Made by a program: the position numbers and the translations under genes. A DNA stretch of 64,000 bases from the NCBI RefSeq assembly GCF_025384765.1, contig NZ_VHLL01000001.1, positions 1-64,000 of the forward strand, written 5' to 3'. Source of the stretch: Methanoculleus formosensis (GTDB lineage: Archaea; Halobacteriota; Methanomicrobia; Methanomicrobiales; Methanoculleaceae). The notes under the pieces are model-generated. The model did no database searches. It was not told where the DNA came from and saw only the letters and a program-made list of their open reading frames with translations. This document shows positions 16,070 to 27,509 of the stretch, piece by piece (the first letter of the stretch is position 1; the number at the start of each line of letters is the position of its first letter).

Positions 16070-16264
16070 ATGAGCAATCCAATGGATTATAATAGAGGAA
16101 ACAGAAATTTTGGCGGTCCCAGAAACTTCGGCGGCCCCCGTGAAATGACAAAGACCATCTGTTCGGACTGCGGCAAAGAGTGCGAAGTCCCGTTCAAGCC
16201 GACCGAAGGCAGACCCGTCTATTGCCAGGACTGCCTCCCGAAGCACAGAAAACCCCGGTTCTAA
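16070..16264 (+). CDS. CxxC-x17-CxxC zinc-binding protein
   Basis: A 64-residue protein with a low-complexity N-terminus (NRGNRNFGGPRNFGGPRE) rich in Asn, Gly, Arg and Phe. One zinc-binding module follows: CSDC, exactly 17 residues, then CQDC, ending LPKHRKPRF. This spacing defines the CxxC-x17-CxxC domain family, abundant in methanogens and some bacteria. The repeats of NFGGP resemble RNA-binding RGG/FG tails, so a nucleic-acid role is plausible but not shown. A strong TATA box sits upstream and a T-rich tract follows the stop, so it is likely a monocistronic, well-expressed gene. Confidence 0.85.
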   Translation: MSNPMDYNRGNRNFGGPRNFGGPREMTKTICSDCGKECEVPFKPTEGRPVYCQDCLPKHRKPRF

Positions 16265-16558: not shown

Positions 16559-17428
16559 TCAGGAGAGCCCGAGTTCGGCAAAGAGAGTATCCCTGAGCAG
16601 TCGGAGGGCATCCGCCGCCGGAGAGTCGGATCGGGTCGCCGGCCGGCCGTTTCTGACCGCGTCGACCACCGCCGGGTCGAACGGGATCTTGCCCACCACC
16701 ACGATCCCCTCCTTCCCGCAGTAGTCCTCGATCCGCTGGCAGATACCCTCCGCGAGGTCGAACCGGTTGATCACAACGAAGATCCGGACCTCAAAGCGCC
16801 GGCAGACTGTCACAAGCCGTTCGAGGTCGTGGAGTGCAGAGACTCCCGGTTCCGTCACGGCGAGGACCGCGTCCATCCCGCTCACCGTCGCGATCAACGG
16901 GCACCCGATCCCCGGCGGGCCGTCGGCGAGGAGGAGGTCGGCGCCCTTCGAGAGGGCCATTGCTCGCTTCTTCACCTCGGTAACGAGCAACCCCGAGTTC
17001 CCTGAGCCCGGAAAGAGCCGGGCGTGAGCGAGGTAGCCGCGATCCGTCTCCGAAGTGAAGACCTCCCCGTTGACGTGCGACACCATCTCGATCGCCCCCA
17101 TCGGACAGACATAGGCGCAGAGCCCGCAGCCCTCGCAGTGGAGGGGATCGACCGCCCAGGCATCGTCACGGCGCACGATCGCCCCGAACCGGCAGTGACT
17201 CTCACAGATGCCGCAATCGGTGCAGATATCCGGATCGATCCGGCCCACCTCAAGCCCCCGGAACTCCTCGGTGCTGATTCGCCGGGGACTGAGGAGGAGA
17301 GAGAGGTTCGCAGCTTCTACGTCGCAGTCGGCGAGAACCTGCGGCACACCGCTCGTATCCGCAAGCGCCGCCGTCACCATCGTCTTCCCGGTGCCGCCCT
17401 TGCCGCTGATAACGGCGAGTTTGATCAT
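16559..17428 (-). CDS. MinD/Mrp-type ATPase with ferredoxin insert (second of pair)
   Basis: A 289-residue P-loop ATPase of the MinD/Mrp/ParA superfamily with the deviant Walker A GKGGTGKT (residues 9-16). Two 4Fe-4S ferredoxin motifs are inserted around 70-105 (CTDCGICESHCRFG and CEGCGLCAYVCPMG). The Walker B region is DLLLADGPPGIGCP. This arrangement is typical of the tandem nucleotide-binding proteins encoded with NifX/NifB-like proteins in anaerobes, and they are thought to assemble or deliver Fe-S or metal cofactors. Its ATG overlaps the TGA of the partner ATPase (ATGA), implying translational coupling. ATG 17428 matches the family N-terminus MIKLAVISGKGG. Confidence 0.9.
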   Translation of the reverse strand: MIKLAVISGKGGTGKTMVTAALADTSGVPQVLADCDVEAANLSLLLSPRRISTEEFRGLEVGRIDPDICTDCGICESHCRFGAIVRRDDAWAVDPLHCEGCGLCAYVCPMGAIEMVSHVNGEVFTSETDRGYLAHARLFPGSGNSGLLVTEVKKRAMALSKGADLLLADGPPGIGCPLIATVSGMDAVLAVTEPGVSALHDLERLVTVCRRFEVRIFVVINRFDLAEGICQRIEDYCGKEGIVVVGKIPFDPAVVDAVRNGRPATRSDSPAADALRLLRDTLFAELGLS

Positions 17429-18267
17429 GGGTTCACCCCCAATATCGCATCGGCAAGATCGGTGAACCGCTCCTCCCACCCGGGCAGGAGCGCGGCGATG
17501 AGCCCGCCCCGGGAGGTCGTGGTCGCGATCTCGCGGGAGAACGGTATGGTCATCAGGATCGGAAGGTCGTGCTCCCGGCAGAAGTCGAGGGTCTCCTCGT
17601 CCTTGCCGTCACTACGGTTGATCACGACACCGGCGGGAATACCGAGCGTCTCGGCCACCCCTGCAGCAAGGCGGAGATCGTGCAGCCCGAACGGCGTCGA
17701 CTCCGTCACCAGAACGCAGAAGTCGCTCCCCTCGAGCGTCTCGATCACCGGGCAGGCGATCCCGGGTGAGGCATCGTAGAGGATGAGCGGGTGGCCTTCC
17801 GCGAGCATCTTTGCCGCCTTGATGACCATCGGGGCCAGCACCTCTCCCTCGTTCAAGACCCCGCTCACCAGGGTGAGGCGCGGGAGAGGGTGGGAACGGG
17901 TCACCCGGCCGATGGTGCGCGGGACCTCCCGGATAGCCCCCTGTGGGCAGACGAGGGCGCAGCCCCCGCAGGAGTGGCAGAGGTGCGGGAAGGTGAGGAC
18001 ACGGTCCTTCACCACGGCAAGTGCCCCGAACCGGCAGAACTTCCCGCACTCCCCGCAGAGGTTGCACTTCGCAGAGTCGATCTTCGGAACCGGCGTCGTC
18101 ACCGGGACATCCGTCGCCTCGGCCGGGAAGAAGAGGTGGAGGTTCGGCTCCTCGACGTCGCAGTCGACGAGCACGACGTCGCGGGAGCAGGAGAGGGTGA
18201 AGGCGAGGTTCGCCGCCACCGTACTCTTCCCGGTGCCGCCTTTCCCGCTTGCAATCGCGATCTTCAT
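17425..18267 (-). CDS. MinD/Mrp-type ATPase with ferredoxin insert (first of pair)
   Basis: The 280-residue partner of the downstream ATPase. Walker A is SGKGGTGKST, beginning at residue 7. Two ferredoxin clusters appear at CNLCGECGKFCRFG and CHSCGGCALVCPQG. The Walker B-like LILYDASPGIACP is followed by the ESTPFGLHDL switch. The two ATPases share architecture but are divergent, so they may work as a heterodimer. The gene starts at ATG 18267, 13 bases after the stop of a NifX-like gene, giving an operon NifX-like, ATPase, ATPase. Role in Fe-S or metallocofactor transfer is inferred from family and context. Confidence 0.9.
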   Translation of the reverse strand: MKIAIASGKGGTGKSTVAANLAFTLSCSRDVVLVDCDVEEPNLHLFFPAEATDVPVTTPVPKIDSAKCNLCGECGKFCRFGALAVVKDRVLTFPHLCHSCGGCALVCPQGAIREVPRTIGRVTRSHPLPRLTLVSGVLNEGEVLAPMVIKAAKMLAEGHPLILYDASPGIACPVIETLEGSDFCVLVTESTPFGLHDLRLAAGVAETLGIPAGVVINRSDGKDEETLDFCREHDLPILMTIPFSREIATTTSRGGLIAALLPGWEERFTDLADAILGVNP

Positions 18268-18280
18268 GCCGGGTCCCGCT

Positions 18281-18622
18281 TCAGGAGAGAGAGAGCGGCT
18301 GCAGGTTCCCGGCGGTGTACTCCGCAAGGGCATCGGCGACGCTACCGTTTCCGCGGTAGGCGTAGACCTTGATCCCACCCGCTTCGAGCGCTTTTGCGGC
18401 GTTCCCGCCGACCTGACCGGTGATGACCACCGTCGCGCCGTGCTCCGAAAACATCTGAACCGCCCGGGGACCGACCCCGCCGGCATCGGCAACGAGGGGG
18501 TTTTCAATCGATTCCGCCGTTCCCGTCTCCGTGTCGACGAAGACGAAGAAGGGTGCCCGGCCGAACCGCTGCTCGGCCGGGGCGTCCATGCCTGCTGCAC
18601 GTGCTGTGATACCAACTATCAT
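18281..18622 (-). CDS. NifX/NifB-like dinitrogenase cofactor family protein
   Basis: A 113-residue single-domain protein of the dinitrogenase iron-molybdenum cofactor biosynthesis family (NifX, NafY, C-terminal NifB). It shows the typical EQRFGRAPFFVFVDTETG, the loop NPLVADAGGVGPRAVQMFSEHGATVVITGQVGGNAAKAL, and a C-terminal helix. In nitrogen fixers these bind NifB-co or FeMo-co. No nif structural genes occur in this window, so it more likely handles another metal cluster. It is the first gene of the operon with the two ferredoxin-MinD ATPases. A CATATG-centred motif lies about 30 bases upstream of its ATG. Confidence 0.9.
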   Translation of the reverse strand: MIVGITARAAGMDAPAEQRFGRAPFFVFVDTETGTAESIENPLVADAGGVGPRAVQMFSEHGATVVITGQVGGNAAKALEAGGIKVYAYRGNGSVADALAEYTAGNLQPLSLS

Positions 18623-18648
18623 CCTGATTCACTCCACTCTGAAATATT

Positions 18649-18663
18649 ACTCATATGTGCATA
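18649..18663 (-). promoter_or_regulatory. CATATG-centred shared motif, site 1
   Basis: On the minus strand this reads TATGCACATATGAGT, immediately downstream of a TATA-like GTATTATG and about 30 bases before the NifX-like ATG at 18622. The core CACATATGAGTA recurs upstream of the DUF5320 gene, and a related form precedes the second NifX-like gene. Confidence 0.5.
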
Positions 18664-18686
18664 ATACTTTGGATAGGAGACCCGCC

Positions 18687-19046
18687 TCAGTGGTGCCCGC
18701 TGCACTCTCCGCCGTCTTCGTGGTGGCAGGAACTCTCTCCCGGAACGAGGCGGCCGGCGATATAGTCCTGCGCGATATAATCGACGTTCCCGCTGATACC
18801 GAGGAGCACCCCGATACCGTTCTCACGGAAAAGTTCGACGGCCCGCGGCCCCATCCCGCCGGCGATGATCTGGTTGACGCCGTGCTCCGCAAGGAAGACC
18901 GGGAGCCGGCCGGGTTCATGGCCGGGGTTCGGGAGATCGTCCCGCCGGTAGATGATCGAATCCTCAACGTCGAATATCGCGTAGTTCTCACAGTGCCCGA
19001 AGTGCCCGGAGACCTGGTTTCCATCCTGTGCTATTGCAATCCTCAT
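18687..19046 (-). CDS. NifX/NifB-like family protein with His/Cys tail
   Basis: A second, 119-residue member of the dinitrogenase cofactor family: MRIAIAQDGNQVSGHFGHCENYAIFDV, then NQIIAGGMGPRAVELFRENGIGVLLGISGNVD. Unlike its neighbour it ends in a metal-ligand-rich tail, ESSCHHEDGGECSGHH, which could bind iron, nickel or zinc. It precedes the other NifX-like gene on the same strand with a 64-base gap holding that gene's own promoter, so the two may be separately transcribed. ATG 19046 fits the family start. A related CATATG motif lies 60 bases upstream. Confidence 0.9.
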   Translation of the reverse strand: MRIAIAQDGNQVSGHFGHCENYAIFDVEDSIIYRRDDLPNPGHEPGRLPVFLAEHGVNQIIAGGMGPRAVELFRENGIGVLLGISGNVDYIAQDYIAGRLVPGESSCHHEDGGECSGHH

Positions 19047-19100
19047 GATATCACCAAATTTACACGGCCCCGTATACGGTATCGGCCGCATACAAACGTA

Positions 19101-19113
19101 CTACACATATGCG
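19101..19113 (-). promoter_or_regulatory. CATATG-centred shared motif, site 2
   Basis: The plus strand reads CTACACATATGCG, with CATATG at 19106-19111. It lies upstream of the NifX-like gene starting at 19046 and shares ACACATATG with the other two sites, though the 3' half is weaker. Confidence 0.4.
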
Positions 19114-19161
19114 CGAAAGGAAGTAAAACCACCTATCGTACCATCCGGTGCCGGGTCGGGG

Positions 19162-19172
19162 AACCTTTTTTA
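19162..19172 (+). promoter_or_regulatory. T-rich promoter element (AACCTTTTTTA)
   Basis: AACCTTTTTTA stands 49 bases before the Lon-like start. The same word occurs ahead of several other genes in the window, and it may be the local form of the TATA element. Confidence 0.35.
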
Positions 19173-19221
19173 AGGCGAGCGACATCCCTGCGGTGTAAGT
19201 TGCAGAGACCTGGTGAGATTG

Positions 19222-21618
19222 ATGATTCAGCCCTTGGATATCAAAGAGTACCGGAACGTCTACGAACCGGGAAAGGTGGAGTGCGCCAGCACCGAGGAGA
19301 TGAGGCCGCTCGAGGAACTCATCGGCCAGGAACGGGCGCTCCGGGCGCTGCGGTTCGGTCTTGAGATCCGGGAGGTCGGGTTCAACGTCTACGCCGCGGG
19401 CGCTCAAGGAACCGGGCGGGTGCGAGCCGTCCGGAGTTTCCTCGACGAGCTCGCGAAGGCCAAGTCCCGGGCGAGCGACTGGGTCTATGTCCATGACTTC
19501 AAGAACCAGTATGAGCCCAACGCCATCGCCCTCCCTGCCGGGAGAGGGAGGGAGTTCCGGGAGGATATAAGACGGTTCATCGATGAGGCGCGGCAGGCGC
19601 TTCCCCGGGCGTTCCAGAGCGAAGAGTATACCCGACGGCGGGACGAGACGCTTCAGGCGCTCCAGGGGAACAGAACGGATCTCATCGCCCGGATCAACCA
19701 GCGCGCCCAGGAGGCTGGGTTCGTTATCCAGATGAGCCCCATCGGCCTTCTGACCATTCCGGTCATCGACGGGAGGCCGGTCCCCGATGAGGAGTTCATC
19801 AACCTCCCCGACGACGTCCGGGCGGAGGTCCAGCGGAGGCGCGACGCTCTCAGCACTGACCTCCGGAGCATGCTCCGGCAGGTGCAGGATATCGAGCGGC
19901 AGGGGGCCGAGGCGGTCACGAAGATCAACCGCGAGATCGCCCTCTACGCGATCGGCAACCTCGTCACCGAACTCAAGGAGAAGTATACCGGTGTCCCGGA
20001 AGTCGCCGAGTATATCGACACCGTCCAGGACGATATCCTCGAGAACCTCCAGGCCTTCCTCGGGATCTCCGAGCAGCAGGGCGTCCCGCCCCAGCTCCAG
20101 GCTCTCATGCGCGAGATCCCGTTCCGGAAGTACGAGGTGAACGTCGTCGTCGACAACGCCGGCGCCGAGGGCGCACCGGTGGTCTTCGAGCAGAACCCCA
20201 CCTTCCAGAACCTCCTCGGCAAGATCGAGAAAGAAGTGCAGTTCGGCGTCGTCACGACCGACTTCACGATGATCCGGCCGGGCTCGCTCCATAAGGCCAA
20301 CGGCGGCTACCTCGTCCTCGACGTCGAAGACCTCCTGCGTGCTCCGCTCTCCTGGGACGGGCTCAAGACGGCGTTGAAGACCGGAGAGGCCGTCATCGAG
20401 GAGCCGGGCGAGCGGATGGGGTTCATCACGGCAAAGACGATCAAGCCCGAACCCATCCCCCTCGACATCAAGGTGGCCCTCATCGGGACGCCGATGATCT
20501 ACCAGCTCCTCTACCAGATGGACCCCGACTTCAAGGAGCTCTTCAAGGTCAAGGCTGACTTCGACACCGTCATGGACCGAAACGACGAGAACGCCAACAA
20601 ATACGCCGACTTCATCTGCAACCTCGTCCGGGAGGAGAAACTCCGGCACCTCGACCGGGGGGCGATCGCCCGGGTGATCGAGCATGGTTCGAGACTCGCC
20701 GCAGACAGGGAGAAACTCTCGACCCAGTTCGCAGTGGTCTCCGACCTCATCAGAGAGGCGAACTTCTACGCCGCAGAGGACGGCGCCGAACAGATCGAGA
20801 GGAGGCATGTCACGAAGGCGATCGAAGAGAAGGTCTACCGCTCGAACCTGGTCCAGAAGAAGGTCGAGGAGGCCATCCGGCGAGGGGTCTTCCTGATCGA
20901 TACCGAGGGTGAGAAGGTCGGCCAGGTGAACGGCCTCTCGGTCATGGGGGTCGGCGACTTCGCGTTCGGTCGACCGTCGAAGGTGACGGCGAGCATCGGG
21001 GTCGGCCGCGAGGGGATCGTGGATATCGAGCGGGAGGCTGCGCTCGGCGGGCCGATCCACACAAAAGGCGTCCTGATCGTGAGCGGCTACCTCAACAACA
21101 ACTACGCACGGGACAGGCCGCTCTCCCTCTCTGCCCGGCTCGTCTTCGAGCAGAGCTACGGAGGAATCGAGGGCGACTCAGCGTCGAGCACCGAACTCTA
21201 TGCCCTCCTCTCGGCGCTCTCGGGGCTTCCGCTGAAGCAGTACCTCGCCGTCACGGGTTCGGTGAACCAGAACGGGGAGGTCCAGGCGATCGGCGGCGTG
21301 AACGAGAAACTGGAGGGGTTTTTCGAGGTCTGCAGGGCAAAAGGGTTCAACGGGAACCAGGGAGCGCTGATCCCGGCGAGCAACGTCCAGAACCTGATGC
21401 TCAAGGAGGAGATCGTCGAGGCCGCGAAGGCGGGGAAGTTCCGGATCTATCCCGTGCGGACGATCGATGAGGGGATCGAGGTTCTGACGGGGGTTCCGGC
21501 AGGCACCCGGCGCGAGAACGGCACCTACGAGGAGGGGACGGTGAACTACCTGGTGGACCGGCGTCTCCGGGAGATGGCCGAGACGATGCGCGGGTTCCAG
21601 CCGACGACGGCGAAGTGA
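19222..21618 (+). CDS. Lon-like ATP-dependent protease (AAA_32/LonH type)
   Basis: A 798-residue protein of the Lon-related family with an N-terminal AAA-like module and a C-terminal S16 protease domain. The Walker A-like loop is GAQGTGRV (60-67), with Arg66 where Lys is usual. Walker B-like GGYLVLDVEDLL follows in the second half of the ATPase. The protease dyad is Ser653 in EGDSASST and Lys696 in GGVNEKLEGFF. There is no substrate-binding LON domain and no transmembrane insert, unlike archaeal LonB. GGTGA at 19212-19216 supports ATG 19222 over GTG 19213. It is followed directly by nifS and the phosphohexomutase in a tight operon. Confidence 0.88.
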   Translation: MIQPLDIKEYRNVYEPGKVECASTEEMRPLEELIGQERALRALRFGLEIREVGFNVYAAGAQGTGRVRAVRSFLDELAKAKSRASDWVYVHDFKNQYEPNAIALPAGRGREFREDIRRFIDEARQALPRAFQSEEYTRRRDETLQALQGNRTDLIARINQRAQEAGFVIQMSPIGLLTIPVIDGRPVPDEEFINLPDDVRAEVQRRRDALSTDLRSMLRQVQDIERQGAEAVTKINREIALYAIGNLVTELKEKYTGVPEVAEYIDTVQDDILENLQAFLGISEQQGVPPQLQALMREIPFRKYEVNVVVDNAGAEGAPVVFEQNPTFQNLLGKIEKEVQFGVVTTDFTMIRPGSLHKANGGYLVLDVEDLLRAPLSWDGLKTALKTGEAVIEEPGERMGFITAKTIKPEPIPLDIKVALIGTPMIYQLLYQMDPDFKELFKVKADFDTVMDRNDENANKYADFICNLVREEKLRHLDRGAIARVIEHGSRLAADREKLSTQFAVVSDLIREANFYAAEDGAEQIERRHVTKAIEEKVYRSNLVQKKVEEAIRRGVFLIDTEGEKVGQVNGLSVMGVGDFAFGRPSKVTASIGVGREGIVDIEREAALGGPIHTKGVLIVSGYLNNNYARDRPLSLSARLVFEQSYGGIEGDSASSTELYALLSALSGLPLKQYLAVTGSVNQNGEVQAIGGVNEKLEGFFEVCRAKGFNGNQGALIPASNVQNLMLKEEIVEAAKAGKFRIYPVRTIDEGIEVLTGVPAGTRRENGTYEEGTVNYLVDRRLREMAETMRGFQPTTAK

Positions 21619-21623
21619 GACCG

Positions 21624-22790
21624 ATGGAGCGGAAACGGACGGTCTACATGGACCATGCGGCGACGACGCCGGTGCGCCCGGAAGTTGTAGAGGCGATGAA
21701 CCCTTACTTCTCGGAGCGGTTCGGGAACCCCTCCTCGCTCTACGCCCTCGCCCGCGAGGCGAAGGAGGCGATCGAGGAGGCGCGGGAGGCGGTGGCGGCG
21801 GCGATCGGCGCGACCCCCGAAGAGATCTACTTCACCTCCGGCGGGACGGAGGCCGACAACTGGGCGATCAAGGGGGCGGCCCTCCGGGGAAAGGGCGATC
21901 ATATCGTCACCTCCGCGATCGAGCACCACGCCGTCCTCCACACCTGCGAGGTCCTCGAGAAGCAGGGTTACCGGGTCACCTACCTCCCCGTCGATGAGTT
22001 CGGCCGGGTGGAGCCGGCGACGGTCGAGGAGGCGATCACCGAGAAGACCGTCCTGGTCTCGGTGATGGCCGCAAACAACGAGATCGGGACGATCCAGCCG
22101 GTCAGGGCGATCGCGGAAGTCGCCCGCGACCACAAGGTCCCGTTCCACACCGACGCCGTCCAGGCGATCGGGGCCTTCCCGGTCGACGTGGACGAGATGG
22201 GAGCCGACCTCCTTGCGCTCTCGGCTCACAAGTTCGGCGGCCCGAAGGGCGTAGGAGCGCTCTACGTCCGGCGGGGGACACGGATCGGGACGTTCATGGA
22301 TGGCGGGGCGCAGGAGCGGGGCCGCCGTGCCGGGACCGAGAACGTTCCCGGGATCGTGGGGCTGGGGCGGGCGATCGAACTTGCGGTCGCCGGGATGCCG
22401 CAGAGCGCGCCAAGGCTCGCCGCGATGCGCGATCGGCTGATTCGCGGGGTCCTGGATGAGATCCCGGACACCCGGCTGAACGGCCACCCGACCGAACGGC
22501 TCCCGAACAACGTCAACGTCGCGTTCCGCTACATCGAGGGGGAGTCGATCCTCCTCATGCTCGATGCCCTCGGGATAGCCGCCTCGACGGGGAGCGCCTG
22601 CACCTCGGCGTCGCTCGAGCCCTCGCATGTCCTGACCTCATGCGGCCTCCCGCCCGAGCACGCCCACGGCTCGCTCCGGCTCACCCTCGGCCACCGGAAC
22701 ACCGAAGACGACGTCGACTACGTCCTTGAGGTGCTTCCCGGGATCATCGAGCGGCTGCGGGCGATCTCGCCGCTCCGGGGAGAGGCGTGA
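21624..22790 (+). CDS. nifS: Cysteine desulfurase (NifS/IscS family)
   Basis: A PLP enzyme that takes sulfur from cysteine for Fe-S cluster and thio-cofactor assembly. The protein of 388 residues has the N-terminal MDHAATTP, PLP Lys203 in SAHKFGGPKG, and the sulfur-accepting Cys326 in STGSACTSASLEPSHV, the NifS/IscS group I loop. ATG 21624 leaves the normal short N-terminus. An earlier GTG at 21615 overlaps the Lon-like stop. The stop is immediately followed by the ATG of the phosphohexomutase gene. With the ferredoxin-MinD/NifX cluster nearby, it could feed metal-sulfur cluster building, although no IscU-like scaffold gene is adjacent. Confidence 0.93.
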   Translation: MERKRTVYMDHAATTPVRPEVVEAMNPYFSERFGNPSSLYALAREAKEAIEEAREAVAAAIGATPEEIYFTSGGTEADNWAIKGAALRGKGDHIVTSAIEHHAVLHTCEVLEKQGYRVTYLPVDEFGRVEPATVEEAITEKTVLVSVMAANNEIGTIQPVRAIAEVARDHKVPFHTDAVQAIGAFPVDVDEMGADLLALSAHKFGGPKGVGALYVRRGTRIGTFMDGGAQERGRRAGTENVPGIVGLGRAIELAVAGMPQSAPRLAAMRDRLIRGVLDEIPDTRLNGHPTERLPNNVNVAFRYIEGESILLMLDALGIAASTGSACTSASLEPSHVLTSCGLPPEHAHGSLRLTLGHRNTEDDVDYVLEVLPGIIERLRAISPLRGEA

Positions 22791-24137
22791 ATGGCCGGGA
22801 TCTTCCGCGCCTACGACATCCGGGGGCGCTACCCGGACGACCTCGACGAGGAGACGGCGGAGCGGATCGGGAACGCCTTCATCGCGCTCCTTAGAGCGGA
22901 ACGCGTCGTCGTTGGGCGGGACATGCGTCTCTCGTCGGAAGCGCTCGCCCGGGCGTTCAGTACCGGAGCGGTCGCGGCCGGGGCGGAGGTCGCCGATGCC
23001 GGCGAGGTGAGCACCCCGCTCCTCAACTACGCCGTTGCGGCAGGGGGGTTCGACGGCGGGGCGATGGTGACGGCCTCCCACCTCCCCGGGCATATGAACG
23101 GGTTCAAACTGGACCGGGAGAACGCCATCCCCCTCTCCGGCGACCGAGACCTGCCACTCCTGGAGGCACGGGTCGGGGAGGAGCCGGTCGCCCGCGCCGG
23201 CGGGTCCTGCCGCCGGATCGATATGCTCGACTCCTACATCGGGAAGGTGGCCGGGTTCGTCCGGAACCCGCGGCCGTTCACGATCGTCGTGGACGGCGGG
23301 AACGGGATGGCCGGGCCGGAGGTGCCCCGGCTCTTTGAGCGGGTCCCGGCCTGGCGCCTCGTGCCGATGTATCTCGACCCCGACGGGGGGTTCCCCCACC
23401 ACCACGCCAACCCGCTCGACCCAGAGACCACCCGGGAACTGCAGGAACGGGTCGTCGCCGAGGGCGCCGATTTCGGGGCCGCGTTCGACGGCGACGCCGA
23501 CCGGTGCGGGTTCATCGATGAACGGGGAAAGCGGGTCCGGGAGGACCTGGCGACCGGCCTCGTCGCGGCATACCTGCTGGAAGAGAACCCGGGGGCGACG
23601 ATCCTCTACGACCTTCGGTCGAGTCGGGCGGTCGTGGAGGCGATCGAGGAGGCGGGGGGGAGAGGGGTCCGGTCGAGGGTGGGCCACGCCTTCATCAAAG
23701 CCCGGATGCGGGAGGAAGACGCCCTCTTCGCCGGGGAACTCTCCGGGCACTACTACTACCGGGATATGGGGTTCACCGACAACGGACTCGTGACGCTGGT
23801 CATGGTTGCAAACATCATCGCCGCGAGCGACAAGACCCTCTCGGAACTCATCCGGCCGCTCGACCGCTACCCTTCGACCGGGGAGATCAACCTCCGGGTG
23901 AGCGATCCAGCGGCGGTCTTTGCGGTGCTCGAGGCGCACCACCGGGACGCGGACCAGGACCACCTCGACGGGCTGACGGTGGGCTACCCGGAGTGGTGGT
24001 TCAACATCCGCCGCTCCCATACCGAGCCGGTGGTGCGGCTGAACCTGGAGGCGGAGACTGAGGGTCTCATGGAGGAGAAGAAGCAAGAGGTGCTCTCGGC
24101 CATCAGGAGTGCCGACCCGGGTGTGCAGGAGGTGTAG
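22791..24137 (+). CDS. Phosphomannomutase/phosphoglucomutase
   Basis: A 448-residue alpha-D-phosphohexomutase that interconverts hexose 1- and 6-phosphates, needed for nucleotide sugars and surface glycans. It starts FRAYDIRGRYP. The phosphoserine loop is TASHLPGHMNG with Ser96; residue 98 is Leu where most family members have Asn (TASHNP). Metal ligands are DGDAD (Asp233, 235, 237). The sugar-specificity loop is GELSGHYYYRDMGFTDNG, and the C-terminal phosphate loop is RRSHTEPVVRLNLEAE. The SGHYYY loop favours mannose as well as glucose phosphates. It is joined without a gap to nifS. Confidence 0.9.
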   Translation: MAGIFRAYDIRGRYPDDLDEETAERIGNAFIALLRAERVVVGRDMRLSSEALARAFSTGAVAAGAEVADAGEVSTPLLNYAVAAGGFDGGAMVTASHLPGHMNGFKLDRENAIPLSGDRDLPLLEARVGEEPVARAGGSCRRIDMLDSYIGKVAGFVRNPRPFTIVVDGGNGMAGPEVPRLFERVPAWRLVPMYLDPDGGFPHHHANPLDPETTRELQERVVAEGADFGAAFDGDADRCGFIDERGKRVREDLATGLVAAYLLEENPGATILYDLRSSRAVVEAIEEAGGRGVRSRVGHAFIKARMREEDALFAGELSGHYYYRDMGFTDNGLVTLVMVANIIAASDKTLSELIRPLDRYPSTGEINLRVSDPAAVFAVLEAHHRDADQDHLDGLTVGYPEWWFNIRRSHTEPVVRLNLEAETEGLMEEKKQEVLSAIRSADPGVQEV

Positions 24138-24434
24138 GGGGGCCGCTTTTGAGAACGGCAGCGGCCTGCACCGTTCACCGCACAGCATCGCCCACGCGGG
24201 AGAGCCGTTCAGAACTTCATCGCGCAAGAAGGCGCCGTTAATCCACTGCTTCCGCGGGAAGAAGATGATGGCCAGCAGCCGCAACTTATAAGTATCCGAT
24301 AGCTCACTGTTGGCCGGCAGGCTGCGGCTTGCAACCGGAACGGAGCCGGGTGAGCCCTCTGGAAATCGTTATCCGGGGGAAGAGGCCGGGATGCACCGGA
24401 CACCCGGGCCCCGATTCGGGAAAGCAGAACAGGT

Positions 24435-24740
24435 ATGGATGTGGTGATGAGAATGGCGGCACAGCAGATGGAGTCCCTGTCCTGGCAGGAGACCATGGTC
24501 CGGAAGTCGAACAACCAGGAGGAGCAGTTCAACCCCGACAAGATCAGGAGGTCGATCCAGAACGCCGGAGCAAGCCAGCAACTGGCGGACGAGATTACCC
24601 GGCAGATCCAGGGGAGCACGCACAGCGGGATGACGACCTCCGAGATCGACAGCAGCGTCCAGGAGACCCTCAGGCAGAAGGATATGAACGCCTACAACAA
24701 CTGGATGCAGTGGAAAGAGCAGCACCAGAGTTCGCGGTAA
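24435..24740 (+). CDS. Stand-alone ATP-cone domain protein
   Basis: A 101-residue protein made almost entirely of one ATP-cone-like domain: MVRKSNNQEEQFNPDKIRRSIQNAGASQQLADEITRQIQGSTHSGMTTSEIDSSVQETLRQKDMNAYNNWMQWKEQ. ATP-cones bind ATP or dATP and normally regulate ribonucleotide reductase or, in NrdR, its genes. This one has no partner domain and no zinc ribbon, so it may act as a nucleotide sensor or adaptor. In-frame starts at 24447 and 24453 are possible. The 297-base gap before it has a TATA-like ACTTATAAGTA at 24284-24294 but no gene. Compare the ATP-cone nuclease at 2244-3074. Confidence 0.75.
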   Translation: MDVVMRMAAQQMESLSWQETMVRKSNNQEEQFNPDKIRRSIQNAGASQQLADEITRQIQGSTHSGMTTSEIDSSVQETLRQKDMNAYNNWMQWKEQHQSSR

Positions 24741-24888
24741 GAACGACTCAAACCTTCCCGCAGGCGGTCTTTCATACCAGGCACCGGACGTCCGCCGGCA
24801 GGTCTGCACGGCGGACTTCCGGGCGCTGCGCCTGCCAGGATGCGGGTGCCCGCAAGAGCGCGCACAATGTTTTTATGATCAAAGAACA

Positions 24889-24898
24889 ATATTTATAT
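24889..24898 (+). promoter_or_regulatory. TATA box upstream of tRNA-Met
   Basis: ATATTTATAT is the only strong TATA element in the 238 bases before the tRNA. It would give a leader of about 55-60 bases to be removed by RNase P. Confidence 0.4.
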
Positions 24899-24978
24899 GC
24901 AGTGAGATTCCGGGATCTCCCGGACGTCTGAGATACGTGTACTGTTTCAAGATTCAGGCCGGCTGCATACCAATTCTC

Positions 24979-25053
24979 GGGCCCGTAGCTTAGTCCGGTC
25001 AGAGCGCCCGGCTCATAACCGGGCGGTCGTGGGTTCGAATCCCTCCGGGCCCA
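24979..25053 (+). tRNA. tRNA-Met (CAT), elongator type
   Basis: A cloverleaf can be folded by eye. The acceptor is GGGCCCG with CGGGCCC (25046-25052). The D-arm contains AGCTTAGTCCGGTCAGAGC. The anticodon stem CCCGG/CCGGG holds loop CTCATAA (anticodon CAT). The T-loop TTCGAAT is at 25034-25040, and the discriminator is A 25053. G1-C72 argues against initiator tRNA, which has A1-U72 in archaea. The alternative is a CAT-anticodon tRNA-Ile2. CCA is not encoded. The T-stem as drawn has one T-T mismatch. Confidence 0.95.
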
Positions 25054-25346
25054 CCTTTTGCAGGATATCGTCGCGTGTAGCGGTGCGTTTTGACGGTGTG
25101 CCGTCGTTCTCTCGTATCCCATCTGACGCCATGGCAGTTGCGGCTCTGCCCGTACACCTGCAGGACACGGATTCCCGATACCAGCTCCGGCCTTCGAGCG
25201 CAGCAAGACCGTTCGGCCTCCCACCAGACACAACGGAGCCTCCAGGCGGTTGTGCACCACCGTATCGCCGGCAGAAGATATTTGACGATGGAGAAGGAGG
25301 GGAACTATCAAAGACACAGAGCAGGCGCGATGCGTGAGGTGACACC
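25054..25346. other. Gene-free gap between tRNA-Met and MNT gene
   Basis: I find no convincing gene, T-tract terminator or strong promoter. Short frames on both strands lack plausible starts or composition. AGATATTTGACG near 25278 may be the TATA element for the nucleotidyltransferase gene. Confidence 0.3.
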
Positions 25347-25706
25347 ATGACCACTGCCCCGAAACCGATGAAGAAGGCGCCGTCCGTCGTCAGGCTTGAG
25401 GAGATGCTGCCGGTACTCCGGGATCGGTTCGGTGTGGTAACGATCGGGGTCTTCGGGTCTACTGCCCGCGGTGAGGAGCGACTTGACAGCGATCTGGATA
25501 TCCTGGTCGAACTCTCGCCGGACCGCCTCACGTTCCGGAACTTCATGGCACTCGCCGACTTCCTGGAGGAACTGTACGGGCGGAAGGTCGATCTCGTCAC
25601 CGTCGGAGGACTGGACCCGCTCATCCGGCAGGATGTCGAGAATGAGGTGGTCTGGTGTGAAGCAGTAACTACAGCATATCCGCTGCATCGAACGAAGAAC
25701 CGTTAG
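25347..25706 (+). CDS. MNT-type nucleotidyltransferase (antitoxin-like)
   Basis: A 119-residue minimal nucleotidyltransferase. The catalytic block is TIGVFGSTARGEERLDSDLDILVEL: the GS motif and DSDLD metal ligands are intact. MNT proteins are usually antitoxins paired with a HEPN RNase toxin, which they silence by AMPylation. Here no HEPN gene is adjacent on either side, so it is an orphan or acts in trans. GAGGTGAC lies just before ATG 25347. The C-terminal CEAVTTAYPLHRTKNR differs from the usual helix end. The following gene is an endonuclease, 41 bases downstream. Confidence 0.88.
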   Translation: MTTAPKPMKKAPSVVRLEEMLPVLRDRFGVVTIGVFGSTARGEERLDSDLDILVELSPDRLTFRNFMALADFLEELYGRKVDLVTVGGLDPLIRQDVENEVVWCEAVTTAYPLHRTKNR

Positions 25707-25747
25707 AAAGGCCTATCTGTCGGGACGCGAGAGTCTCCTGAGAGACT

Positions 25748-26311
25748 ATGATCGAATGGGCCGTCATCCTTTTACTGTTTCTTGCGCTCTTAGCACTTTT
25801 CTACAAATACTCCCGGATCCAGGGTCAGGTCGAGCGGAATGCACGTGAGCTGTTTGAATCCTGGCGTTGGAGGGAGCGGGAGGATATCGAAGACTGGAAA
25901 GAGCAGGAACTCAGGCGGCTCTCGGATGAGAAGGCAAGGATTCTCTTTGAGAAGTGGAGACTGGACGAAGAGGGGAATATCCGCACCGATGCGGTGAAGC
26001 GCAGCCAGTCGGTGACCCGGGGGAAGGTCACGGAGTGCCTCATCCCGTACTTCCCGGACTTCCCCTACAATCCGAAGGATGCACGGTTTTTAGGGACTCC
26101 GGTCGATCTCATCGTCTTTGACGGACTCTCCGACGCCGATGAGGTGCAGAAGGTGGTGTTCGTCGAGATAAAGACGGGTAAAGCCGCCAACCTGAGCAGA
26201 CGGGAGCGTGCCGTCAGGGAGTGCATCAAAGCCGGGCGGGTGCAGTACTCCACCATCCACCAGTCGTTTGACGAAGAGACCAACCGGCTGAGCGATATGG
26301 GGATGAACTAG
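25748..26311 (+). CDS. Holliday-junction-resolvase-related endonuclease, membrane-tethered
   Basis: A 187-residue protein with an N-terminal transmembrane helix (IEWAVILLLFLALLALFYK), a charged coiled-coil (residues about 30-85), and a PD-(D/E)XK-type nuclease domain. It matches the family of endonucleases distantly related to archaeal Holliday junction resolvases: RSQSVTRGKVTECLIPYFPDFPYNPKDARFLGTPVDLIVFDGL, then VVFVEIKTGKAANLSRRERAVRECI. Likely catalytic residues are Glu in GKVTE, Asp in PVDLIVFD and the EIK triad. Membrane tethering is common in this family. Its substrate and role are unknown. Confidence 0.85.
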   Translation: MIEWAVILLLFLALLALFYKYSRIQGQVERNARELFESWRWREREDIEDWKEQELRRLSDEKARILFEKWRLDEEGNIRTDAVKRSQSVTRGKVTECLIPYFPDFPYNPKDARFLGTPVDLIVFDGLSDADEVQKVVFVEIKTGKAANLSRRERAVRECIKAGRVQYSTIHQSFDEETNRLSDMGMN

Positions 26312-26394
26312 TCTTATACAGTTGTATGGGGTTTTGAACCGTTGCCGGGTCTCGATACCCGCCGCAAAAAAGTCTGGAGAGGATCTCTTCCACG

Positions 26395-26772
26395 TCACCC
26401 AGGCGAGGGACCCGTGGAGGCGTCCTCGTCCTCGGGGCACCCCTCCTCCCGCTCACGGCCGCACCCGGCGATCCGGATCGTCTTCCCGTTCACCAGGGCG
26501 TCGGCGACCTTGGCCCGCGCCTCGTGGAGGTCGCGCCAGAGAGTCTTGCGGGAGATACCAAGGGTGCGAGCGGCTTCTTCCTGCTCGAGTCCCGAAAGAT
26601 CGACGAGGCGGAGGGCCTCCACCTCTTCGGGGAGGATGACGACGACCTCGTCAGGCCTCCCGCAGAGGGGGCCGAAACAGCGGAACGCCCCCGGATCCCC
26701 GATCATCCGGCGGGCCCGGGGCCGGCCGCGTCCGCGGCGGCAACGCCCCTCGCCATGCTCGCTCTCGTTCAC
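26395..26772 (-). CDS. DUF134 DNA-binding protein
   Basis: A 125-residue member of the DUF134 family of predicted helix-turn-helix proteins. The N-terminus is basic (RCRRGRGRPRARR), followed by GAFRCFGPLCGRPDEVVVILPEEVEALRLVDLSGLEQEEAARTLGISRKTLWRDLHEARAKVADALVNGKTIRI. The sigma70-region-4-like helix-turn-helix is EQEEAARTLGISRKTLWRDLHEAR. The Cys-rich tail (CGREREEGC) may bind metal. DUF134 genes commonly sit with DUF5320, NifX-like and ferredoxin-MinD genes. I start it at GTG 26772 because the upstream extension is compositionally unlike protein. It lies 65 bases downstream of the DUF5320 gene on the same strand. Confidence 0.85.
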   Translation of the reverse strand: MNESEHGEGRCRRGRGRPRARRMIGDPGAFRCFGPLCGRPDEVVVILPEEVEALRLVDLSGLEQEEAARTLGISRKTLWRDLHEARAKVADALVNGKTIRIAGCGREREEGCPEDEDASTGPSPG

Positions 26773-26837
26773 GGTATCATCTCTGGAGAAGATCTCCGTC
26801 CCGCGTGCAGATAGTGCCTTCGCTCCGGCACCGGGCG

Positions 26838-27035
26838 TTACCGACGACCGCGTGCTCGACCGCCGCAGTGGCCGCGGCCGCATCCGCACGGGACTCCGCC
26901 CCGGCCGACGCCGCGAAGCACTGGCGTGGCGGACTCGCCTTCCGCCGCCGCAGTCGGGGGCAGAACGCACCGGCCCCGGCGGCCGCCCGTCATCGGGCCA
27001 GCCCCGGCAGGTCCGGTTCCATCAAATCCTGGCAT
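26838..27035 (-). CDS. DUF5320 small Gly/Cys-rich protein
   Basis: A 65-residue protein starting MPGFDGTGPAGAGPMTGGRRGRC, the signature of the DUF5320 family, and ending in a Gly/Cys/His/Arg-rich tail (PCGCGRGHCGGRARGRR) that could bind metal. Such proteins accompany NifX-like and ferredoxin-MinD genes in anaerobes; their role is not known. A strong ribosome site GAGGTGAT (27041-27048 on the minus strand) stands 5 bases before ATG 27035, and an unusually AT-rich promoter with a CATATG motif lies directly upstream. DUF134 follows. Confidence 0.8.
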   Translation of the reverse strand: MPGFDGTGPAGAGPMTGGRRGRCVLPPTAAAEGESATPVLRGVGRGGVPCGCGRGHCGGRARGRR

Positions 27036-27052
27036 GGTGTATCACCTCAATT

Positions 27053-27067
27053 AGTACACATATGAGT
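27053..27067 (-). promoter_or_regulatory. CATATG-centred shared motif, site 3
   Basis: The plus strand reads AGTACACATATGAGT, with CATATG at 27059-27064. On the gene strand it lies between an AT-rich TATA region (about 27066-27090) and the start of the DUF5320 gene. It matches site 1 over ACATATGAGTA, an operator-like position. Confidence 0.5.
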
Positions 27068-27136
27068 ATAAATATATTATATATACTGATGGGGCAAAAT
27101 GAGATGCTCCCGCAGGCGGAATCATGATGACAGTCA

Positions 27137-27213
27137 ACTACCCCACGCTAGCGCAGGGGCCTCCTTGCCCGACGTGGTGAAGCGAGGCCTGCCCGACCGG
27201 TGAGCGCTGGATG
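27137..27213 (+). mobile_element. Solo IS605/TnpB-like end or structured remnant
   Basis: After AACTACC comes a hairpin CCCC-A-CGC-TA-GCG-CA-GGGG (27141-27159), then a second fold GCCTC.../...GAGGC. The form 'ccccgcg..cgcgggg then cttcc' resembles the right end and guide-RNA end of archaeal IS605-group TnpB elements. No tnpA or tnpB frame is nearby, so this would be a solo end. Identification is by resemblance only. Confidence 0.35.
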
Positions 27214-27239
27214 ATCACCAGCGGTAAACCGGAGCTCCG

Positions 27240-27509
27240 TCAAGGGAAGACACCGTAGATCTCTTCACGGCTCTTTACCCGGTAAAAGGTGAGAACTCCA
27301 TCCTGGATCCGGCAACCGATCCGATACGTCCCCACCCGAATTCGATAGTAATCTCGATAACCCTGGATCTTCCGGATGTCGAGTTCGGTAAAGATATCTT
27401 CCGACGCAGGAATCTTCTCAAACACCAGGTTCTCGATCTTTTTTCGGTAGTCGGGGTGAACCTTCGCCAGATCTTTTAGAAAGGTCTTTTTATAGCGGCA
27501 GGGGACCAT
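27240..27509 (-). CDS. RelE/ParE-family toxin
   Basis: An 89-residue toxin-like protein: KKTFLKDLAKVHPDYRKKIENLVFEKIPASEDIFTELDIRKIQGYRDYYRIRVGTYRIGCRIQDGVLTFYRVKSREEIYGVFP. The RelE-like core is clear, with the DYYRIRVGTYRIGCRI strand pair and the terminal RVKSREEIY. RelE proteins cut mRNA in the ribosome A site and ParE relatives inhibit gyrase; sequence alone does not choose. Its ATG lies one base past the antitoxin stop, the standard antitoxin-first order. Confidence 0.9.
   Translation of the reverse strand: MVPCRYKKTFLKDLAKVHPDYRKKIENLVFEKIPASEDIFTELDIRKIQGYRDYYRIRVGTYRIGCRIQDGVLTFYRVKSREEIYGVFP

Follow-up and report, generated by a model that had tools for sequence, protein, structure and literature searches.

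A conserved CATATG-centred palindrome as the predicted DUF134 operator at NifX/ORP-type genes of Methanoculleus formosensis

The closest described gene set is the orp locus of Desulfovibrio vulgaris, in which Orp3 and Orp4 each carry two ferredoxin motifs, Orp8 is a homologue of a Mo-Cu cluster protein, MrpORP belongs to the same set, and the genes form two divergent operons under a sigma54-dependent promoter (available text of PMC6345978). The window analysed here, that is, the whole 64,000-nt stretch of Methanoculleus formosensis DNA, contains units with the same kind of target genes as this ORange Protein (ORP) complex; whereas the D. vulgaris operons are under sigma54 control, a palindrome linked to DUF134 stands at the window units. 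We take Orp3 and Orp4 to be MinD-like ATPases and Orp8 to be NifX-like, and to our knowledge archaea have no sigma54. Among known regulators, IscR, NikR and ModE are one-component metalloregulators with a fold and an operator unlike those of DUF134. DUF134 likewise is a small helix-turn-helix protein with a palindromic candidate operator over the promoter, a site at its own operon and a predicted control of cofactor genes, while its proposed sensor would be a NifX domain or partner.

As to DUF134 itself, the available text of PMC7565180 describes DUF134 and DUF5320 proteins as functionally unknown, with a motif that may bind quadruplexes; in the parts available, DUF134 is also mentioned in PMC8347963, and UPF0251 (= DUF134) appears in a mutation table of PMC5886521. 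PMC10434189 was discarded as a source, as its available text concerns DUF1349 instead. A literature search of titles and abstracts, with most subscription journals outside its scope, did not find DUF134 binding at a defined DNA site, and because of this scope the novelty of the DUF134 site is unproven.

Palindromic sites and genes of the three leftward units

A 14-bp near-palindrome, YRC-N-CATATG-N-GYR, precedes three leftward units of the window. An earlier note on this DNA had reported a shared motif before these units, which we confirmed, with exact positions 1-2 bases off those first given. The sites, the adjoining promoter stretches and the genes are as follows.

27055-27068, strand ".", putative operator palindrome TACACATATGAGTA, upstream of DUF5320-DUF134; sole exact TACNCATATGNGTA genome-wide
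27069..27085, minus strand, TATA-like A/T run (putative box), directly 5' of the DUF5320-DUF134 site
26838..27035, minus strand, DUF5320 protein, first gene of its unit (Pfam PF17253, 32.9 bits, cut-off 27)
26395..26772, minus strand, DUF134 protein, proposed regulator (Pfam PF02001, 79.2 bits, cut-off 27; helix-turn-helix model); predicted GTG start, the ORF in the program list being longer
19102-19115, strand ".", putative operator palindrome TACACATATGCGCG, upstream of NifX2, between this gene and a divergent LonB-like gene
18687..19046, minus strand, NifX-like protein 2 (NifX2; Pfam PF02579); predicted start 19046, listed ORF from 19091
18662..18671, minus strand, TATA-like stretch (putative box), directly 5' of the NifX1 site
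18648-18661, strand ".", putative operator palindrome TACTCATATGTGCA, upstream of NifX1 and two ferredoxin-MinD ATPases
18281..18622, minus strand, NifX-like protein 1 (NifX1; Pfam PF02579, 78.7 bits)
17425..18267, minus strand, ferredoxin-MinD ATPase a (CbiA and Fer4 matches; predicted start)
16559..17431, minus strand, ferredoxin-MinD ATPase b (CbiA and Fer4 matches; predicted start)

The sites at 18648-18661 and 27055-27068 were said in the note to agree with each other, and they do have ACATATGAGTA in common, on opposite strands relative to their own genes; since the word is near-palindromic, the orientation relative to the genes hardly matters. With up to two mismatches, ACATATGAGTA occurs 10 times in the window against 2.75 expected, and 0 of 100 shuffles reach as many. 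Pfam searches confirmed the families of the units as Nitro_FeMo-Co (two proteins), CbiA/Fer4 ATPases (two proteins), DUF5320 and DUF134. The window carries a NifX/ORP protein together with two ferredoxin-MinD ATPases, as in an ORP-type gene set, and NifX2 matches the ORP domain of MrpORP (E 1.7e-28; 99.9 bits, under that model's whole-protein cut-off), so the window genes resemble the Desulfovibrio ORP set.

Analysis of the promoter regions revealed an A/T fraction of 0.90 in the 10 nt 5' of 39 distinct archaeal sites, compared with 0.50 farther upstream; for 36 of the 39, the distance from the end of the site to the start codon is 12-40 nt. The archaeal site thus lies between a TATA-like run and the start codon. 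The NifX2 site, approximately 55 nt from its start, is farther away than the others. TATTATG beside the NifX1 site recurs within the genus, and the count of strict TATA hexamers is weak (7/39 in the adjoining 22 nt versus 2/39 in the far 22 nt, of 45). No sigma-70 promoter was found when the archaeal region 26350-27300 was scanned for one.

Frequency and conservation of the word

In the 2.65-Mb M. formosensis genome, the exact word TACNCATATGNGTA occurs once, and with up to one mismatch it is found at four places, two of which are window sites. The other two are L003, a chance-like site in the leader of a gene read from its sequence as putative PurH-like, and L004, at the start of a gene read as putative FmdE-like; in a related genome (G033), an exact site (L032) lies at the same FmdE-like gene. 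At up to two mismatches the genome has 19 matches, fewer than the 44 of the reversed control; by itself this loose word carries no meaning, and we rejected it as the description of a genome-wide regulon. The relaxed word YRCNCATATGNGYR has four genome occurrences, three being window sites and the fourth lying at C1:71200 (L225), and its reversed control has two. This pattern was derived partly from the window sites and their orthologues, so proof has to come from elsewhere, and the independent support is conservation in relatives. A random frequency of the motif, which the note had named as grounds for abandoning the idea, did not apply to the strict word, which is rare, with the reservation that the loose word has no genome-wide enrichment.

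A scan of the family (40 genomes) found 21 copies of the exact word, spread over 18 genomes, and none of its reversed control. Fifteen of the 18 exact-word loci retrieved, the M. formosensis site included, are at the DUF5320/DUF134 position; L026 and L027 (same genus) and L032 are away from it. The exact family sites outside the 18 retrieved loci are G015:C23, G032:C124 and G033:C98, the last one 340 nt before a DUF134 match. NifX1 was detected in 35 and DUF134 in 32 of the 40 genomes. The upstream regions were compared over the best 30 loci per gene, with usable starts for 29 (NifX1), 29 (NifX2) and 21 (DUF5320). The word is kept at an almost fixed place in 19/21 DUF5320 upstreams, as is YRCNCATATGNGYR in 23/29 NifX1 upstreams, while the NifX2 upstreams keep the word in 14/29, or in 24/29 if CTTATG is counted (CWTATG). 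The third site, listed in the note as a weaker one at 19101-19113, also has its place kept in relatives, with CTTATG more often than the other sites.

Comparison with the relatives revealed site identities of 0.90, 0.94, and 0.91 (NifX1, NifX2, and DUF5320), versus 0.76, 0.76, and 0.63 for the flanks. The best other 14-nt stretch of the same upstreams reached 0.84, 0.93, and 0.93, respectively, and before DUF5320 it is more conserved than the site (0.93 vs 0.91), so the site is not alone as a conserved block. Conservation upstream of orthologues had been set beforehand as a test, its absence counting as a refutation, and it was found. The NifX1 site persists in G020 and is degraded in G021, two genomes (assemblies 80-83% complete) in which DUF134 was not detected.

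The analysis was extended to 80 DUF134 loci (982,012 bp), which belong for the most part to Methanomicrobiales; some are from Methanomassiliicoccales-type MAGs and one is from a Methanocella. These loci contain 23 exact and 90 relaxed words, whereas 23 alternative palindromic cores, similar in composition and placed in the identical frame, gave 0-8 each. Most relaxed words (69/90) lie at most 330 nt before a domain match of DUF5320 (43), NifX (25), or DUF134 (1). The relaxed word is present in 52 of the 80 loci, 45 of which have one at DUF5320, NifX or DUF134, and it is absent from the remaining 28. A conserved palindromic site is therefore found at several operons, including that of DUF134 itself, in the manner of a regulon.

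Counts of the relaxed word over the order (100 genomes) gave 288 versus 78 for its control; the counts were 222 vs 52 in 67 genomes with DUF134 and 9 vs 4 in 7 genomes without it, with G025 omitted and 25 genomes of unassayed DUF134 status kept apart. In a sample of 392 genomes from the phylum, 238 have DUF134 above the Pfam cut-off. The exact word was found there in 24/83 genomes of the order of M. formosensis (control 8/83) and in 12/309 genomes outside it, where the control was commoner, so the exact word marks this order and not every DUF134 carrier. Within the order, it is absent in 8/8 genomes without DUF134, but also in 51/75 genomes with DUF134.

DUF134 recognition helix and palindrome type

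The DUF134 protein scored 82 against NCBIfam NF003257, below the cut-off of 115. In its AlphaFold2 model, the helices 48-59, 64-71, and 75-95 form a helix-turn-helix with an SRxTxW-type helix, with pLDDT values of 86-97 in ten-residue blocks at the helices and of 73.7 for the whole model. A Foldseek search with this model gave region 4 of SigR and SigE, DeoR and KorA at probabilities of 0.99-1.00, but none of the matches reached E 0.001 (best 0.013, with approximately 40-50 residues covered); the helix-turn-helix fold of the model is most similar, at weak E-values, to sigma region 4 and to the domains by which DeoR and KorA bind DNA. A PDB sequence search gave no convincing relative, the sigma factors having E-values of 0.015 or worse. 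Designed TIM barrels, the best PDB rows, were dismissed as short repeated matches. Four cysteines are invariant in 13 DUF134 proteins of the same order, and in an alignment of 35 of the 45 first-listed sequences (ten left out) three are invariant and one nearly so; they are not common to the other DUF134 clades compared.

In addition, 40 DUF134 regions from other families were retrieved, and palindromes were searched de novo in the 150 nt before DUF134, DUF5320, NifX and MinD-type genes, grouped by recognition helix. For the helix grouping and the cross table, upstreams near-identical over 40 nt were merged. The palindrome type changes with the DUF134 recognition helix, two helix classes having two palindromes. 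The top palindrome is CTCATATGAG at loci with the helix SR[KR]TxW[RK]D (18 of 267 upstreams, versus 0.2 in shuffles) and AATATATATT at loci with the helix SQPTFHR (25 of 68, versus 0.0). The CATATG word is upstream in 43/84 SR[KR]TxW[RK]D loci and in 0/24 SQPTFHR loci, while GAATATATATTC is found in 1/84 and 22/24, respectively. A NifX gene is present in 17 of the 24 SQPTFHR loci, and in 9 of the 24 DUF134 and NifX are each preceded by GAATATATATTC.

Two individual families were also inspected. In f16 (helix SRKTLWRDL), AGC[GT]CATATGTGCA is centred 10-13 nt before DUF134 in 3/3 loci, and in f26 (helix SRKTLW[IVM]D), the CATATG word is upstream in 3/3 loci from two genomes. The helix classes SRRAFWED (19 loci) and SRKAFWND (10 loci) gave no common palindrome in the upstream search. 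On a DUF134 tree (117 of 152 rows kept), the operator labels, assigned with a looser CATATG word, clustered beyond shuffles, and the operator labelled B needed 3 changes; both results come from few alignment columns, and because the helix classes follow the clades, few independent changes stand behind the helix-operator link.

Bacterial DUF134 is found in 189 plasmid records, mostly enterobacterial. Of 15 bacterial DUF134 regions, which include close relatives and are not all independent, 10 have CATATG in the 200 nt preceding DUF134, compared with 4.3% of random windows. Near variants are present in four other loci, namely CATTTG (two Bacteroidota), CAAATG (Treponema) and CATAAG (Salinivibrio), and Acetoanaerobium has no clear CATATG-type site upstream of DUF134. 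The promoter check covered 11 of the 15 loci (L266, L272, L276 and L278 left out); in six promoters, the -35 box TTGACA lies inside the palindrome and is followed 16-17 nt on by a -10 box with 5 or 6 of 6 matches. In the Roseburia-type promoter, TTGACATATGTCAA lies on the -35 box. Judged from the sequence, the archaeal and -35-box positions are those of a repressor.

The DUF134 frame runs on into NifX-type sequence in 7/15 bacterial loci, with a NifX family match for two of the fusions, those of Roseburia and Pusillibacter. Peptoclostridium has a DUF134-NifX-ATPase-ATPase-MrpORP row on a single strand, with DUF134 first. In Salinivibrio, NifX is separate from DUF134, and TTGGCATATGCCAT-like sites precede NifX.

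Predicted regulation by DUF134 and alternative readings

The attribution of the motif to DUF134 was originally a guess. It now appears supported by the site at DUF134's own operon, by the other palindrome that accompanies another recognition helix at the same genes, and by the CATATG-core palindromes on the promoters of bacterial DUF134 operons. With the sites, their conservation, their position and their link to the DUF134 type observed here, we consider it highly probable that the palindrome is the DUF134 operator and that DUF134 represses both its own operon and NifX/ORP-type genes, likely with a metal-cluster signal.

In the proposed mechanism, the small DUF134 protein, whose helix-turn-helix resembles that of sigma region 4, is predicted to bind the palindrome, probably as a dimer on the two half-sites. 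On the DNA it would adjoin the TATA box in archaea and cover the -35 box in several bacteria, and it would block its own operon as well as the NifX/ORP-type metal-sulfide cluster genes. The repressor is probably released when a metal or Fe-S cluster changes. The sensor may be NifX, which some bacteria have as a fusion with DUF134, or the four cysteines of the proteins from the order of the window.

That DUF134 instead activates from the site, or activates some promoters and represses others, is in our judgement unlikely: its fold resembles sigma region 4 and the NifX2 site is farther from the start (~55 nt), whereas sites that overlap the -35 box or sit between the TATA-like run and the start occupy the position of a repressor. 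Another regulator, unlinked to DUF134, might bind the palindrome and have DUF134 merely as one target, which would fit the two DUF134 classes without a clear site, the one or two genomes that have the NifX1 site with DUF134 undetected, and the so far predicted status of DUF134 binding. This is quite improbable, as the operator type shifts together with the DUF134 recognition helix and the Salinivibrio sites precede the split-off NifX; moreover, CATATG palindromes at plasmid-borne DUF134 operons from several bacterial phyla make one common unlinked regulator unlikely.

The word could also be a basal promoter part (extended TATA or initiator context) and no regulator site at all, as the archaeal sites adjoin a TATA-like, A/T-rich run and their distance to the start varies little. 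We give this reading very little credence, since the word is palindromic and its bacterial versions lie on -35 boxes; with just 4 occurrences over 2.65 Mb, the relaxed word is too rare for a general promoter element. As for three similar words having met in the window by chance and been seen after the fact, the genome matches at two mismatches are indeed fewer than those of the control (19 vs 44), but the positional conservation across as many as 29 orthologous upstream regions, the excess over other palindromic cores, the placement at target genes and the helix link in DUF134 loci leave chance a negligible probability.

Operation of the palindrome by DUF134 as a repressor would be ordinary as a mechanism, a helix-turn-helix regulator with its operator; the interest lies in a testable site, its targets and a possible sensor. 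Taken more broadly, DUF134 may be an ancient archaeal and bacterial family that uses CATATG- or ATATAT-centred palindromes and couples the transcription of ORP/NifX-type genes to the cluster state, sensed by a fused or adjacent NifX, a proposal for and against which we see the chances as evenly divided. DUF134 is widespread, also on bacterial plasmids, yet its Pfam entry reads 'unknown function'. A named candidate operator with its promoter position and targets makes the family directly testable, and would provide a handle on when anaerobes make the ORP/NifX cluster proteins.

NifX genes and their neighbours

Three features in the window adjoin the NifX genes or the ferredoxin-MinD ATPase unit:

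16070-16264, small treble-clef zinc-finger protein (Pfam PF23477), adjoining the ferredoxin-MinD ATPase unit
19102-19115, NifX2 site, in the divergent gap between NifX2, the second NifX-like gene, and a LonB-like gene
19213-21618, + strand, LonB-like gene, across the divergent gap from NifX2

Because the NifX2 site shares this gap with the LonB-like gene, it could affect lon as well. In three genomes of the same family, the match to NifX1, the first NifX-like gene, contains one in-frame TGA (loci L052 in G029, L057 in G030, and L058 in G017).

Operator-like words at an FmdE-like gene

The exact operator word was observed at the start of an FmdE-like gene, so named from sequence reading, in G033 (L032 1501-1514), and a CATATG word with one mismatch occupies the corresponding gene start in the own genome (L004 1501-1514, C8:72119). 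The FmdE-like gene is a possible additional target.

DUF134 in other lineages

In the DUF134 tree (117 of 152 rows, few columns), the proteins of five Methanomassiliicoccaceae and Methanomethylophilaceae MAG loci (L135, L138, L139, L143, and L153) are placed within Methanomicrobiales, and the CATATG word is present in four of the five. The system may have been transferred, or the contigs may have been mis-binned.

Enterobacterial and Aeromonas-group plasmids carry DUF134-NifX (L269, L270, L277, L279, and L280), with two CATATG sites upstream of DUF134; downstream of DUF134-NifX lies a gene for a PaaI thioesterase, one for a SLAC1 channel, or both.

In the DUF134 family f9 (L195, L197, and L198), the recognition helix reads SKATVW, and the upstream regions contain repeats resembling TTGAAATATGTTTCAA, which perhaps represent a third operator type.
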